This document shows, piece by piece, positions 16,977-23,256 of a stretch of DNA of 64,000 bases (position 1 is its first letter; the number at the start of each line of letters is the position of its first letter). Position numbers and translations under genes: made by a program. The notes below the pieces were generated by a model. It searched no databases. It was given only the letters and a program-made list of their open reading frames with translations, and was not told where the DNA came from. This stretch comes from Mycobacteriales bacterium (GTDB lineage: Bacteria; Actinomycetota; Actinomycetes; DATLTS01). The DNA lies in the NCBI GenBank assembly GCA_035533475.1, contig DATLTS010000031.1:1-64000 (forward strand), given 5' to 3'.

Positions 16977-18392
16977 CTACAGCGGGATGTTCCCGTGCCG
17001 CCCCCGCGGCGCCCTGGGGTCCCCCGTGCGCAGCGCCGCGGCCAGCTCGCTGCGGGTTCGGTCCGGGTCGATGATGGCGTCGAGGACGCCGAGCTCCATC
17101 GCCCGGGTGGTGCCACCGGCGAGCTGTTCGTGCTCGACCGCGAGCTCGGCTTCGAGGCCGGCCCGCTCCCCCTCGGCAAGCTCGGCCAGCCGCCGCCGGT
17201 GCAGGATCCGGACGGCGGCGACCGCGCCCATCACGGCGACCTCGGCGCCCGGCCAGGCCAGTACCTTCGTCGCACCGAGCGAGCGCGAGTTCATCGCGAT
17301 GTACGCGCCGCCATAGGCCTTGCGGGTGACGACGGTTACCCGCGGCACGACCGCCTCGGCGAACGCGTGCAGCAGCTTCGCGCCGCGCCGGACCACCCCG
17401 TCCCATTCCTGCCCGACCCCGGGCAGGTAGCCCGGCACGTCGACCAGAACGACGAGCGGCAGCCCGAGGCTGTCGCACATCCGGACGAAGCGCGCGCCCT
17501 TCTCGGCCGCGGTGGCGTCGAGGCAGCCACCGAGCCGGAGCGGGTTGTTGGCGATCACACCGACGGCCCGGCCGCCGAACCGACCGAGGGTCGTGACGAG
17601 GTTCGCCCCCCACCTGGGGTGCAGTTCTACGCCGGGGGCGTCGAGCACGGTGTCGACGACCGGATGCACGTCGTAGGCGCGGCGCGCTGATGCGGGCAGC
17701 AGTCCGCGAAATCGGCGGTCGTCGACCACCCCGAGCGCACCCGGCCGGCCGAGCAGGCCGACGAGCCGGCGGGCCGACGCGCAGGCCGCGTCGTCGGTGT
17801 CCGACACCAGGTGGACGACTCCGCTGCGCCGGCCGTGGGGTTCCGGGCCGCCTAGTCGCAGCATGTCGACATCCTCGCCGGTGACGCTGCGCACCACGTC
17901 CGGGCCGGTGACGAAGATCCGCCCCGCCGGGCCGAGGATGACGACGTCGGTGAGGGCGGGTCCGTAGGCCGCCCCGCCGGCGGCCGGCCCGAGCACCACG
18001 GAGATCTGCGGGATCCGCCCGGAGGCCCGGGTCATCGCCGCGAAGACGCGGCCGACCCCGTCGAGGGACGCGACACCTTCGGCCAGCCGTGCCCCCCCGG
18101 AGTGCCAGAGCCCGACGATCGGCGCGCCCTGGGCGAGCGCGAGGTCGTAGGCCGCGCAGACGGTCGCGCATCCCTCCCGCCCCAGGGCGCCGCCCTGGAT
18201 CGACGGCTCGGCGGCGAACACGACCGCGTCGACGCCGTCCATTCGGCCGAGGCCGGCGACCACGCCGCTGCCCGGCGTGTCCCAGATCGGCCGGAGCGAT
18301 CCCTCGTCGCAGGCGGCGGCGAGACGGCTGTGCGCGGAGCGTGGGTCGGCGCCGCGACCGAGCAGCGCGGCCCCCGGCAGGGTGGCCGTCAC
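16977..18392 (-). CDS. accD: Acyl-CoA carboxylase beta (carboxyltransferase) subunit
   Basis: A 471-residue carboxyltransferase that moves CO2 from carboxybiotin to acetyl- or propionyl-CoA, giving malonyl-CoA for the FAS enzymes encoded upstream. Oxyanion and CoA-site segments are present: GPAAGGAAYGPA in the N-half, and DVPGYLPGVGQE plus TRKAYGGAYIAM in the C-half. It ends with the typical RGRHGNIPL. Its start overlaps the fabF stop by four bases, placing it last in the fasR-fabD-fabH-acpP-fabF-accD order, equivalent to accD6 in the mycobacterial FAS-II operon. The biotinylated alpha subunit is not in this window. Confidence 0.93.
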   Translation of the reverse strand: MTATLPGAALLGRGADPRSAHSRLAAACDEGSLRPIWDTPGSGVVAGLGRMDGVDAVVFAAEPSIQGGALGREGCATVCAAYDLALAQGAPIVGLWHSGGARLAEGVASLDGVGRVFAAMTRASGRIPQISVVLGPAAGGAAYGPALTDVVILGPAGRIFVTGPDVVRSVTGEDVDMLRLGGPEPHGRRSGVVHLVSDTDDAACASARRLVGLLGRPGALGVVDDRRFRGLLPASARRAYDVHPVVDTVLDAPGVELHPRWGANLVTTLGRFGGRAVGVIANNPLRLGGCLDATAAEKGARFVRMCDSLGLPLVVLVDVPGYLPGVGQEWDGVVRRGAKLLHAFAEAVVPRVTVVTRKAYGGAYIAMNSRSLGATKVLAWPGAEVAVMGAVAAVRILHRRRLAELAEGERAGLEAELAVEHEQLAGGTTRAMELGVLDAIIDPDRTRSELAAALRTGDPRAPRGRHGNIPL

Positions 18393-19621
18393 CCGGCCGG
18401 CCGGAACAGCAGGCTGACGTTGTGCCCCCCGAAGCCGAACGAGTTCGACAGGGCGGCCGCCCCCGGCGGTAACGATCGCGGGTCGACCCGCACGAGGTCG
18501 AGGTCGATCTCGTCGTCCGGGTCGTCGAGGTTGCGGATCGCCGGTGCCCGCCCATCGCGGAGCGCGAGGATCGTCGCGATGGCCTCCACCGCCCCGGCCG
18601 CGCCGAGCAGGTGACCGGTCATGGATTTCGTGGCGCTGACGACCGCGCGGTCGGCGCCGGCGCCCAGCGCGGAGCGGATCGCCCGGGCTTCCGCGACGTC
18701 GCCGATCGGCGTCGATGTCGCGTGCGCGTTGACGTGCCCGACGTCGCCGGGCGCCGCCTCGGCGTCGGCCAGGGCCAGGCTCATCGCCCGGGCCGCACCG
18801 CGGCCCGTGGGCTCCGGCGCGGCGACGTGGTGGGCATCCGCGGTGATGCCCGCCCCGGCGAGCTCGGCGTAGACCGGCTGCCCCCGGGCAGCGGCGTGCT
18901 CGGCGGATTCGAGGACGAGAACCCCGGCCCCCTCACCGAGGACGAAGCCGTCGCGGGCCTTGTCGTAGGGCCGGGAGGCACGGTCCGGCTCGTCGTTGCG
19001 GATCGACAGCGCCCGCATCGCCGCGAAACCGGCGATCGGCAGCGCATGGATCGCCGCTTCGGTGCCCCCCGCGACGACCACGTCCGCCCGGCCGGCCCGG
19101 ATCAGGTCGAGCCCGAGCGCGATCGCCTCGGCGCCGGACGCGCAGGCGGACACCGGGGCGTGCACCCCGGCCCGGGCCCCGAGCGCCAAACCGACGGTGG
19201 CCGCGGGGCCGTTGGGCATGAGCATCGGCACCGTGTGCGGGGAGACCCGGCGGGGCCCGAGCTCGCGGAGCACATCGTACTGGGCGAGCAGTGTCAGCAC
19301 CCCGCCGATGCCGGAGGCGATCACAACCGCGAGTCGTTCCGGTTCCGCCTCCGGGCTCCCGGCGTCGGTCCAGGCCTCCCGGGCCGCGAGCAGCGCCAGC
19401 TGCTGGGACCGGTCGAGCGTGCGTGCTTCCACCCGGTCGAGCCGTTCGAGCGGCTCGACCGCGACCGGTGCGGCGATCCGGACCGGCAGGTCAGCGACCC
19501 AGTCGGTGTCCAGGGCCCGGACGCCGGACGCGCCGGCGAGCAGGGCGGCCCAGGTGGAGGGGGCGTCCGGGCCGATCGGCGTGAATGCGCCGAGGCCGGT
19601 GACGGCGACCGCGCGGGTCAC
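18389..19621 (-). CDS. fabF: Beta-ketoacyl-ACP synthase II (KAS II)
   Basis: A 410-residue condensing enzyme that elongates acyl-ACP with malonyl-ACP. The Cys-His-His triad is visible: Cys160 in VSACASGAEAI, His in NAHATSTPIGD and His in GHLLGAAGAVE, with the C-terminal NSFGFGGHN loop. GTG start at 19621 overlaps the acpP stop in GTGA, and its end overlaps the accD start by four bases, so acpP-fabF-accD are translationally coupled. Length and motifs are standard for FabF. Confidence 0.96.
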   Translation of the reverse strand: MTRAVAVTGLGAFTPIGPDAPSTWAALLAGASGVRALDTDWVADLPVRIAAPVAVEPLERLDRVEARTLDRSQQLALLAAREAWTDAGSPEAEPERLAVVIASGIGGVLTLLAQYDVLRELGPRRVSPHTVPMLMPNGPAATVGLALGARAGVHAPVSACASGAEAIALGLDLIRAGRADVVVAGGTEAAIHALPIAGFAAMRALSIRNDEPDRASRPYDKARDGFVLGEGAGVLVLESAEHAAARGQPVYAELAGAGITADAHHVAAPEPTGRGAARAMSLALADAEAAPGDVGHVNAHATSTPIGDVAEARAIRSALGAGADRAVVSATKSMTGHLLGAAGAVEAIATILALRDGRAPAIRNLDDPDDEIDLDLVRVDPRSLPPGAAALSNSFGFGGHNVSLLFRPAG

Positions 19622-19894: not shown

Positions 19895-20851
19895 TCAGGG
19901 AACGCGGACGACCTGTCCGGCGTAACTGAGGCCGGCCCCGAAGGCCAGCAGAAGCGCGAGGCTGCCGGCCGGCAGCTGACCGTCGGCGAGCAGCCGGCAG
20001 AGCGCGAGGGGCACCGAGGCCGCGGAGGTGTTCCCGGCCTCGACGATGTCCCGGGCAACGACCGCGCGCGGCGCGTCGAGGGCCCGCGCCAGGGCTTCGA
20101 TGACCCGCAGGTTGGCCTGGTGCGGGACGATCGCCGAAAGGTCGCCGGGGGCGATCCCGGCGAGTTCGCAGGCCTGGCGGGCCACCGGCGCGAGCGCGGA
20201 CGTCGCCCAGCGGTAAACCGGCTGGCCGTCCATCTGCAGGAATCGCCCGTCGGCGGGGACGCCGATCAGGCCCGCCCGTCCGCCGTCGCTGCCCCAGGCC
20301 ACCGGCCCGATCCCGGGCTGCTCTGCCGGCCCGACGACCGCGGCCGCAGCCCCGTCGCCGAACAGAATGGCCGTGGACCGGTCTTCCCAGTCGACCCAGT
20401 CGGACATGCGTTCGGACCCGATCACGACAGCGTGCCGGGCGGAGCCACCGCGCACCGCGTCGGCGGCGACCGACAGCGCGTAGCAGAAGCCGCCACAAGC
20501 CGCGTTGATGTCGAAGGCGGCGATCCCGTTGACGCCCAGCAGGTGAGCCACCTGCGGTGCGCCGCCGGGGATCGGCGTCGCCATGGTGCAGGTCGCGAGC
20601 ACGAGGAGGTCGACGTCCGCCGGCGCGAGCCCGGACTCGGCGATCGCCTTCCCAGCCGCCGCGGCGGCCATCGCCACCACGCTCTCGCCCGGGCCGGCGA
20701 TCCGCCGTGAGCTGATCCCGGTGCGGCTGCGGATCCACCCGTCGCTGGTGTCGAGGCGACCGGCGAGCTCGAGGTTGGTGACAACCCGGGTCGGCCGATA
20801 GTCGCCGAGACCGAGCAGCCGGGTGTGCGGCGCCCCGGCGCTGACCCTCAC
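19895..20851 (-). CDS. fabH: Beta-ketoacyl-ACP synthase III (KAS III)
   Basis: A 318-residue enzyme that starts fatty-acid chains by condensing an acyl-CoA primer with malonyl-ACP. Catalytic Cys119 is in NAACGGFCY, His is in VPHQANLRV and Asn is in EAGNTSAAS, so the triad is complete. The GTG start at 20851 overlaps the fabD stop in GTGA. A much longer frame runs upstream through fabD but has no similarity there. Actinobacterial FabH often prefers branched primers, which is family knowledge and not visible here. Confidence 0.96.
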   Translation of the reverse strand: MRVSAGAPHTRLLGLGDYRPTRVVTNLELAGRLDTSDGWIRSRTGISSRRIAGPGESVVAMAAAAAGKAIAESGLAPADVDLLVLATCTMATPIPGGAPQVAHLLGVNGIAAFDINAACGGFCYALSVAADAVRGGSARHAVVIGSERMSDWVDWEDRSTAILFGDGAAAAVVGPAEQPGIGPVAWGSDGGRAGLIGVPADGRFLQMDGQPVYRWATSALAPVARQACELAGIAPGDLSAIVPHQANLRVIEALARALDAPRAVVARDIVEAGNTSAASVPLALCRLLADGQLPAGSLALLLAFGAGLSYAGQVVRVP

Positions 20852-22068
20852 AGCCCGACCGGCTCGGGGTGCAGCCGGGCGAGCGGTTGGCCGGGGCCCA
20901 CCGGGTCGCCGTCCTCGGCGAGCCATTCGAGGAGAACCCCGCCGTGCGCGCTTGCGACCGGCACGGTTTCCCGCCGGGCCTCGACCGACCCGACGACCGA
21001 CCCGACGTCGAGCCGGGTCCCGGGGACGAGCGGATCGGGGCGGAAGGTGCCGCCGAGCGGGGCGACGACGACCCGCCAGGCCGGACCGGGCTCCCCGCGC
21101 ACGCCGCGGTGGGATTCGATCAGACCGTCGGCGGCCGCCAGGTCCTCCGGGGTCCGGATGGCGAGGGTCACGACATCGGGGAGTGCTCGGCGGATCAGCC
21201 CGGTGAGGGTCCCGGCCGGCGGGAGCTCGAGCACCGCGGTGACCCCGAGGGCGCCGAGGGTGGCCATGCAGGCGTCCCAACGGACCGGGGCGCTGACCTG
21301 CGCGATCAGCCGCCCGAGGAGCTCGGGCCCGGAGGTGACCACCGCGCCGTCGGCGTTCGACACGACGGGGATCCGTGGATCGGCGACCGGCAGCGCGCCC
21401 GCCAGGTGCTCGAGGGTCCGCCGGGCGGGCTCCATAGCCGCGGTGTGGAAGGCCCCGGCTACGGCGAGCCGGCGGAGCCGGGCCCGGGCCGGCGGGTCGG
21501 CGGCAAGCTCGTCGAGAGCGGTGACCGGGCCGGCGGCGACGACCTGTCCGGCGCCGTTGACATTGGCCGCGATCAGGCCGAGCCGGGCGAGGGCCCCGGC
21601 CACCTCGTCGGGGTCTCCACCGAGGATCGCGGTCATCCCGGTGGGCGTCAGCGCGGCGGCGGCGGCCATCGCCCGGCCGCGGGCTGCGACCAGCCCCAGC
21701 GCGGTGTCGTCGCTGAGTGCACCGGACAGGGCGGCCGCCGTCAGCTCGCCGACGCTGTGCCCGGAAACGGCACCGAGACCTTCCGGCCAGTCCGGTGCAC
21801 CGAGCTCCGCGGCGACCGCGAGGGCGCTGGCCACGAGCAACGGCTGGGCCACCGAGGTGTCGCGGATCTCCTCGTCGCCGGCCACCGTTCCGGCCCGGCG
21901 CAGGTCTACGCCGGTGAGCGCGCTCGCCCAGTCCAGTCGGGTGGCGACCCCGGGGAGTTCGAGCCACGGGTCGAGGAAGCCCGGGGTCTGGGCGCCTTGC
22001 CCCGGGCAGACGATGGCGAGCACAGGGTCCAGCCCATCGGACCTGGCGTGCCGGGGCAACCTCGACAC
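20848..22068 (-). CDS. fabD: Malonyl-CoA:ACP transacylase fused to a biotinyl/lipoyl-like domain
   Basis: The N-terminal 315 residues are a normal FabD: PGQGAQTPGF, nucleophile Ser105 in SGHSVGE, His208 in AGAFHT and the GTLTGLIRRALP segment. It charges ACP with malonate. Typical FabD would end near residue 316. Here residues about 331-402 form a domain resembling biotinyl/lipoyl carriers (VVAPLGGTF..., VEARRETVPVASAHGGVLLEW, DGDPVGPGQPLARL), but the acceptor motif EAMKM reads EARRE, so the modified Lys is Arg (366). Homology suggests the start could be GTG 22023 rather than 22068. It is GTGA-coupled to fabH. Confidence 0.92.
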   Translation of the reverse strand: MSRLPRHARSDGLDPVLAIVCPGQGAQTPGFLDPWLELPGVATRLDWASALTGVDLRRAGTVAGDEEIRDTSVAQPLLVASALAVAAELGAPDWPEGLGAVSGHSVGELTAAALSGALSDDTALGLVAARGRAMAAAAALTPTGMTAILGGDPDEVAGALARLGLIAANVNGAGQVVAAGPVTALDELAADPPARARLRRLAVAGAFHTAAMEPARRTLEHLAGALPVADPRIPVVSNADGAVVTSGPELLGRLIAQVSAPVRWDACMATLGALGVTAVLELPPAGTLTGLIRRALPDVVTLAIRTPEDLAAADGLIESHRGVRGEPGPAWRVVVAPLGGTFRPDPLVPGTRLDVGSVVGSVEARRETVPVASAHGGVLLEWLAEDGDPVGPGQPLARLHPEPVGL

Positions 22069-22101: not shown

Positions 22102-23256
22102 CTACAAAACTGGCTTCTCGCCCGCCAGCCGGCCGAAGGCCAGGGCCAGCCGCAGGACGAATGCGGAACGAGGGTCCGAGGGGGAGTGCCCGGTGATCTC
22201 GGCCGACCGGCGGAGCCGGTAACGCACGGTATTCGGATGCACGAACAGCAGGCGGGCGGTGGCCTCGAGGGAGCCGGCGGATTCCAGATAGGCCGCCACG
22301 GTGTCTAAGAGGTGGCCGCCGGCGTCGGCCAACGGGGTGTAGACCTCCTCCAGGAGCGCCGTGACCGCCCCCGGGTCCCCGGCCAACGCCCGCTCGGCGA
22401 GCAACTCGGTCGCGGGAACGGGACGGGGGGCCCCGGGCCAGGCGGCGGCCGCCCGGAGCCCGCCGATCGCCGCGGCGGCCGAGGTCTCGGCCGTGGCCAG
22501 GTCGCTCACCGTGGGTCCGAGAACCACCGGTCCGTCGCCGAACTCGCCGGCCAGCAGGTCGGCCGCTCCGACCGGGTCGGCGGCGCCGACGATCACCACC
22601 AGCCGATCTCCCTGGAACCCGCCGAGGGCGTAGGCCCCGGCCCGGCGGGCCGCCCGCGCGATCGCGTCGAGGACGGCTTCCGGCTCGCCGGCCGGGGCGT
22701 GCCCGGCGAGCACCGCCACCGGGGTCCCGGCGCTCCAGCCGAGGGCCGCGGCCCGGGAGAGCAGGCCGGCGTCGGCCTCGCCCCGGAGCACCGCGTCGAC
22801 CACCAGGGCCTCGAGCCGGGCGTCCCAGGCGCCGCGCTCTTCGGCGGTCCGGGCGTAAACGAGGGCGGTGGCGAAGGCGATCTCCCGGGAGTAGCGGAGC
22901 ACGGCGACGCGGAGCAGGGCCTCGTCGCCCGGCGCCGCCAGGGTGGCGACGTGCTCCTCGATCGTGTCGATCGCGGCCCGGACCAGTTCGACGGTCTGCT
23001 GCAACGTCACCGATCTCGCCAACGCGCGGGGGGCGGTGCCGAATACATCGCCCGGCAGGCCGGTCCCTGGGGAGGGTCGGCGCAACCAGACGACGAAGCT
23101 GGCGATCCCGGCCTGCACGACGAGGCCGACCCAGGCCCGCTGGTCGGCGGGCATGGCCCGAAACCACGGCAGCGTCGCGTCCATCCGGGTGACCGCCTGG
23201 GTCGCGATCTTCCCGGCGGCCCGCTCGATTCGACGGGCGGTGCCGGCGGCGGTCAT
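22102..23256 (-). CDS. fasR: FAS operon transcriptional activator, PucR/CdaR family (FasR)
   Basis: A 384-residue regulator with a central GGDEF-like/CdaR region and a C-terminal PucR-type helix-turn-helix (SLEATARLLFVHPNTVRYRL, then RRSAEITG). In Streptomyces the orthologue sits immediately upstream of fabD and activates the operon; the same arrangement is seen here, with 33-78 bp to the fabD start depending on which start is used. GTG or ATG start near 23256. It is divergent from the PHP-domain gene with about 50 bp between them, so that short region must hold both promoters. Confidence 0.92.
   Translation of the reverse strand: MTAAGTARRIERAAGKIATQAVTRMDATLPWFRAMPADQRAWVGLVVQAGIASFVVWLRRPSPGTGLPGDVFGTAPRALARSVTLQQTVELVRAAIDTIEEHVATLAAPGDEALLRVAVLRYSREIAFATALVYARTAEERGAWDARLEALVVDAVLRGEADAGLLSRAAALGWSAGTPVAVLAGHAPAGEPEAVLDAIARAARRAGAYALGGFQGDRLVVIVGAADPVGAADLLAGEFGDGPVVLGPTVSDLATAETSAAAAIGGLRAAAAWPGAPRPVPATELLAERALAGDPGAVTALLEEVYTPLADAGGHLLDTVAAYLESAGSLEATARLLFVHPNTVRYRLRRSAEITGHSPSDPRSAFVLRLALAFGRLAGEKPVL

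Follow-up and report, generated by a model that had tools for sequence, protein, structure and literature searches.

The main new result of this study is a coupling between a C-terminal tail on FabD, the malonyl-CoA:ACP transacylase of fatty acid synthesis, and accD, a carboxyltransferase gene of the same operon. The tail was met in a stretch of 64,000 nucleotides from a Mycobacteriales bacterium (contig DATLTS010000031.1), hereafter the window. It has the fold of a biotin carboxyl carrier protein (BCCP) and has lost the acceptor lysine; it is strongly conserved, and it has repeatedly been lost, or has decayed, together with AccD. We lean towards reading it as a non-acylated pseudo-BCCP through which FabD docks to an AccD-based acetyl-CoA carboxylase. 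No published description of this fusion was found in the open-access literature.

The fabD gene and its operon

The fabD frame lies on the minus strand, on which a previous reading of the sequence alone had been silent, and runs from GTG 22068 to TGA 20848 (406 amino acids) with no internal stops or frameshifts (Table 1). That sequence-only reading had considered that the tail might lie past a frameshift and that FabD might in truth end near residue 316; we find a single intact frame down to the TGA. This, with the existence of orthologues carrying the same tail, rules out a frameshift, a wrong frame or a chimera as its source. Residue numbers used here are counted from the called start, GTG 22068. 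Translation probably begins at GTG 22023 (Val16) instead, because homologues have their start there and residues 1-10 have pLDDT below 50; beginning at GTG 22068 makes the protein 13-15 residues longer than most homologues, and the model predicts this extra stretch with low confidence.

Table 1. Features of the fab operon and of the FabD protein in the window
Feature	Position	Strand	Basis or remark
PucR-type regulator, upstream of fabD; control gene in coupling test	22102..23256	-	
fabD, malonyl-CoA:ACP transacylase with C-terminal pseudo-biotinyl domain	20848..22068	-	ORF, Pfam Acyl_transf_1, solved FabD relatives
FabD catalytic core, residues 16-320 (Ser105, Arg130, His208)	21109..22023	-	structure model, solved relatives, conservation
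Predicted flexible linker, residues 321-330	21079..21108	-	low pLDDT, poor conservation
Lysine-less BCCP-fold domain, residues 331-401	20866..21078	-	profiles, AlphaFold, Foldseek
Arg366 codon, biotinyl-lysine position	20971..20973	-	alignment
His400 codon, family signature residue	20869..20871	-	alignment
fabH	19895..20851	-	start codon overlapping fabD stop
acpP, acyl carrier protein, 82 aa	19618..19866	-	
fabF, beta-ketoacyl-ACP synthase II	18389..19621	-	TIGR03150 above cut-off
accD, single-chain carboxyltransferase, 471 aa	16977..18392	-	co-lost with FabD tail

Ser105 (in GHSVGE) and His208 (in GAFH), on which the earlier description of a normal transacylase had rested, are both present in the core and, like Arg130 and Gln24, invariant among relatives. 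The full-length AlphaFold model has a mean pLDDT of 91.6, and Foldseek places the core on Streptomyces coelicolor FabD (1nm2) with a TM score of 0.96 (normalised by 1nm2) at 57% identity; over the aligned core, identity to 1nm2 and to Mycobacterium tuberculosis FabD (2qc3) is 49-57%. Pfam Acyl_transf_1 is passed (63.9 bits against a cut-off of 32.7), while the NCBIfam FabD equivalog TIGR00128 is missed (155.3 against 260.9 bits). We take the operon and the identity to S. coelicolor FabD to outweigh this miss, and so regard the core as an ordinary FabD for which malonyl transfer is predicted. The NCBIfam model for MdcH, of malonate decarboxylase, outscores the FabD model with 178.7 bits, yet falls under its own cut-off; this ranking could mislead automatic naming, although the operon is clearly fab.

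The genes follow in the order fabD, fabH, acpP, fabF, accD. The fabD stop (TGA, 20850-20848) overlaps the fabH start (GTG, 20851-20849), and acpP/fabF and fabF/accD share 4-nt overlaps. Upstream, the PucR-type regulator gene occupies the position of fasR/mabR. The order pucR-fabD-(fabH)-acpP-fabF is common to the window, S. coelicolor and M. tuberculosis, and in M. tuberculosis accD6 is retained in the fab operon (PMC5311964). The FabDs of these two organisms, by contrast, end near residue 316-320, and neither solved structure has a tail, in keeping with the earlier remark that the fusion was unfamiliar from model actinobacteria.

A carrier fold with arginine in place of lysine

Core and tail are joined by a linker that is predicted to be disordered and flexible: residues 321-330 have a mean pLDDT of 55, with residues 324-329 below 50 in the full-length model. 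That model gives the tail six strands. Modelled alone, residues 331-401 reach a pLDDT of 97.9, and the structures closest to them in Foldseek are all biotin carriers, headed by solved BCCPs (2ejf, 5gu8 and 1bdo; TM 0.88 to 2ejf chain C). A profile built from 15 tails finds the transcarboxylase 1.3S BCCP (1dcz/1dd2) first in the PDB, with E=4e-9. The biotinyl-like character that the sequence-only reading had recognised in residues 331-402 is thus confirmed, and the expected barrel forms in the model. Against single-sequence profile models the result is mixed: NCBIfam PRK07051, a biotin-carrier model, matches with E=1.9e-8, under its curated cut-off, and the single tail sequence misses the gathering threshold of Pfam Biotin_lipoyl PF00364 (E 0.006; 16.9 bits against 22.1). 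The profile and Foldseek matches rule out chance likeness, and a lipoyl identity is excluded because biotin carriers lead in both sequence and structure. The tail is, as a high-confidence prediction, a flattened beta-barrel of the biotinyl (BCCP) type.

Fold and hairpin layout are therefore shared with BCCPs and the transcarboxylase 1.3S carriers of PF00364; what sets the tail apart is the missing acceptor lysine and a residue signature of its own, W331-R332, R366, H375, E381-W382, D388-P389, R398 and H400-P401. In the hairpin, where carriers have EAMKM, Arg366 aligns with the acceptor lysine, whose absence had been noted before. This position is arginine in 98 of 105 unique tails and in 120 of the 127 tailed FabDs that adjoin accD, and lysine in none of either set; no lysine-bearing member, which would have pointed to a working carrier fusion, occurs among the aligned tails. 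In four Nocardioidaceae loci that retain accD (L218, L219, L225 and L226), DGDLVxPGQP replaces DGDPV in the tail.

Tail and accD are lost together

The 137 distinct operons gathered class-wide comprise 93 with both tail and accD, 21 with neither, 18 with accD only and 5 with a tail only, a distribution for which Pagel's test gives p=0.004. A first test by independent pairs on the class-wide set favoured coupling by 5-6 pairs to 0-1 (median p 0.06) and was underpowered, for which reason three families were sampled densely. These, Nocardioidaceae, Propionibacteriaceae and Dermatophilaceae/Intrasporangiaceae, were chosen because tailed and tail-less FabDs are mixed within them, sometimes inside one genus. 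Among the resulting 100 operons, 37 have both tail and accD, 59 have neither, 4 have a tail without accD, and none has accD without a tail. Sign tests on independent pairs, with trees built from the FabD core and FabF, show tail and accD changing in the same direction by about 14:0 in the three families (median p 1.2e-4) and about 19:0.4 across all 233 operons (p ~1e-5); a tree of FabF alone gives about 19:0 (p ~4e-6).

Since the trees on which changes were counted come from genes of the operon itself, transfer of whole operons is ruled out as the source of the coupling. Nor is the tail marked by just any adjoining gene, for pucR, used as a control in the same pair test, shows no coupling (1.6:0.4, p=1). 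In the genomes tested, the AccD of tailed operons with accD is 63-69% identical to that of the window, and the tail-less genomes tested hold no operon-type AccD anywhere, their best paralogue reaching at most 48% identity. The loss of AccD is itself plausible, given that AccD6 is dispensable in Mycobacterium smegmatis, where AccD5 takes over (PMC5311964). One locus (L227, genome G064) has a second accD-like gene about 6.6 kb downstream of fabD, beyond the operon.

The association extends to the sequence of the tails that persist. In the 127 distinct tails from operons with accD the signature residues are 85-99% conserved, whereas the nine distinct tails from operons without it, which come from six separate families, retain fewer of the 16 signature residues scored (Mann-Whitney p=4e-6) and have diverged further relative to their cores (p=3e-4); both p values are optimistic, since the tails are related by descent. 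Arg366 falls from 94% to 33% (3/9), and His400, at 91% beside accD, is down to 11%; the four core catalytic residues stand at 100% in the FabDs of accD-less operons too. In two loci of family f37 (L222 and L223, from 7 Mb genomes) with no operon accD, the tail is strongly diverged, with Trp331 and His400 lost and glutamine at 366.

Individual genomes depart from this pattern. Phytoactinopolyspora halophila (L090/L244) keeps an intact tail without accD; an operon-type AccD was predicted elsewhere in its genome (L090/G018) and none was found there. This could be a recent loss of accD, which is possible in that sister species retain the gene. Genome G094, of family f37, encodes an AccD of 60% identity elsewhere, although its tail has decayed. 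The 18 operons with accD and no tail belong to other families (among them three of f16, four of f17 and two of f4) and indicate that AccD works without the tail, which is thus not obligatory. The suggestion in the sequence-only reading that the tail concerns AccD has therefore gained strong, if indirect, support from the repeated co-loss and from the decay of Arg366 and His400, but it must accommodate lineages in which the same accD stands beside a tail-less FabD.

A proposed docking role and its alternatives

In the role that we favour, the tail cannot be biotinylated and would instead be a module for docking, attached through a flexible linker. Its partner would be the acetyl-CoA carboxylase around the operon-encoded AccD, either the carboxyltransferase itself or its BC-BCCP partner, and the hairpin bearing Arg366 would be presented where a true carrier presents its biotinyl-lysine, so that FabD would be held beside its own source of malonyl-CoA. 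In true BCCPs the hairpin tip is the part that enters the carboxylase active sites, and the positions that decay upon loss of AccD include the acceptor position at this tip. Physical binding and the exact partner surface are here proposed from comparative data, and the benefit may lie either in handing over the substrate or in helping the carboxylase to assemble. That the pseudo-BCCP couples acetyl-CoA carboxylase to the entry of type II synthesis in many Actinomycetes, with malonyl-CoA handed over within the complex, is a more specific claim that we put at slightly under an even chance. Mirror-tree analysis counts against direct contact between tail and AccD: within tailed operons their rates show no covariation (partial r 0.018), and distance covariation of the tail favours ACP (0.235, the highest value) and the FabD core (0.192).

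The covariation with ACP speaks for a different partner. Arg366 and other basic residues might bind acidic ACP, as basic surfaces usually do, in docking to ACP or FabH, and the co-loss of accD would then follow indirectly from a wider change in malonyl-CoA supply. We think this distinctly unlikely. Loss of the tail nearly always leaves fabH, acpP and fabF in place, so that the tail is not explained by the presence of these genes; FabDs that have no tail work with ACP; and the decay of Arg366 and His400 follows accD and not ACP. Co-loss with AccD and a lysine-less carrier fold would fit equally well if the tail were a brake: as a decoy, it would compete with biotinylated BCCP for the carboxyltransferase or the biotin carboxylase and thereby adjust the supply of malonyl-CoA to the occupancy of FabD. 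The plant protein BADC (biotin attachment domain-containing), BCCP-like, lacking the biotinylation motif and a non-catalytic carboxylase subunit, was at first reported as an inhibitor, while later work favours a role in assembly (both discussed in PMC11926652); a decoy fused one-to-one to the enzyme that requires the product would, moreover, be an odd design, and we consider a brake unlikely. BADC, of the plastid acetyl-CoA carboxylase, is still the nearest concept to the tail, both being BCCP-like and not biotinylatable, but it stands as a protein on its own within a heteromeric carboxylase, while the tail is fused to FabD in actinobacteria, and a BADC-like working of the tail is suggested by analogy.

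Explanations that give the tail no partner, or a working chemistry, fare worse. A stabilising or vestigial domain, left by an old FabD-BCCP fusion, would suit the missing lysine, the lack of a known function and the absence of the tail from several lineages; it is very improbable given the conservation of the signature beside accD and selective decay only in its absence, and a relic would not be expected to vanish in step with accD. The retained biotinyl fold might also suggest a carrier modified at another residue or by other chemistry. With arginine at 366, variable residues on either side of it, and neither lysine nor an invariant serine or cysteine at the hairpin tip in the alignment of tails, this is barely credible.

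FabD is usually regarded as free-standing, drawing malonyl-CoA from solution. If the tail does bind the carboxylase, then in a large group of actinobacteria a single assembly would carry out both the committed step and the entry into fatty acid synthesis. A physical link between acetyl-CoA carboxylase and type II synthase, long in question, could then be tested through a single domain and two point mutants, at R366 and H400. Plant plastids have so far provided the best-known example of a lysine-less carrier domain serving as a carboxylase subunit, and the tail would then be a bacterial one.

Distribution of tailed FabD

A survey of FabD tails, which the sequence-only reading had proposed across actinobacteria, was run through the class Actinomycetes and found the tail (profile match at E <=1e-15) in 106 of 297 genomes. 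The named loci belong to Frankiaceae, Acidothermales, Jiangellaceae, Kribbella, Nocardioides, Microlunatus, Actinopolymorpha, Intrasporangiaceae and Nanopelagicales. Among 247 genomes drawn from the whole phylum, no tail occurred outside the class: the FabD-sized matches came from the genome of the window and from a single other of the same class, and two further matches fell in frames of 660-674 amino acids, the size of BC-BCCP proteins. In families f26, f42 and f33, strict cut-offs give no match to a FabD of this type in many of the Nocardioidaceae and in some members of the remaining two families; such genomes perhaps use another fatty acid synthase. Tailed loci also appear in metagenome-assembled genomes labelled Sphaerobacter (L094) and Rubrivirga (L119); as L119 branches with Nanopelagicales, L094 lying outside the tree, both contigs are probably mis-binned.
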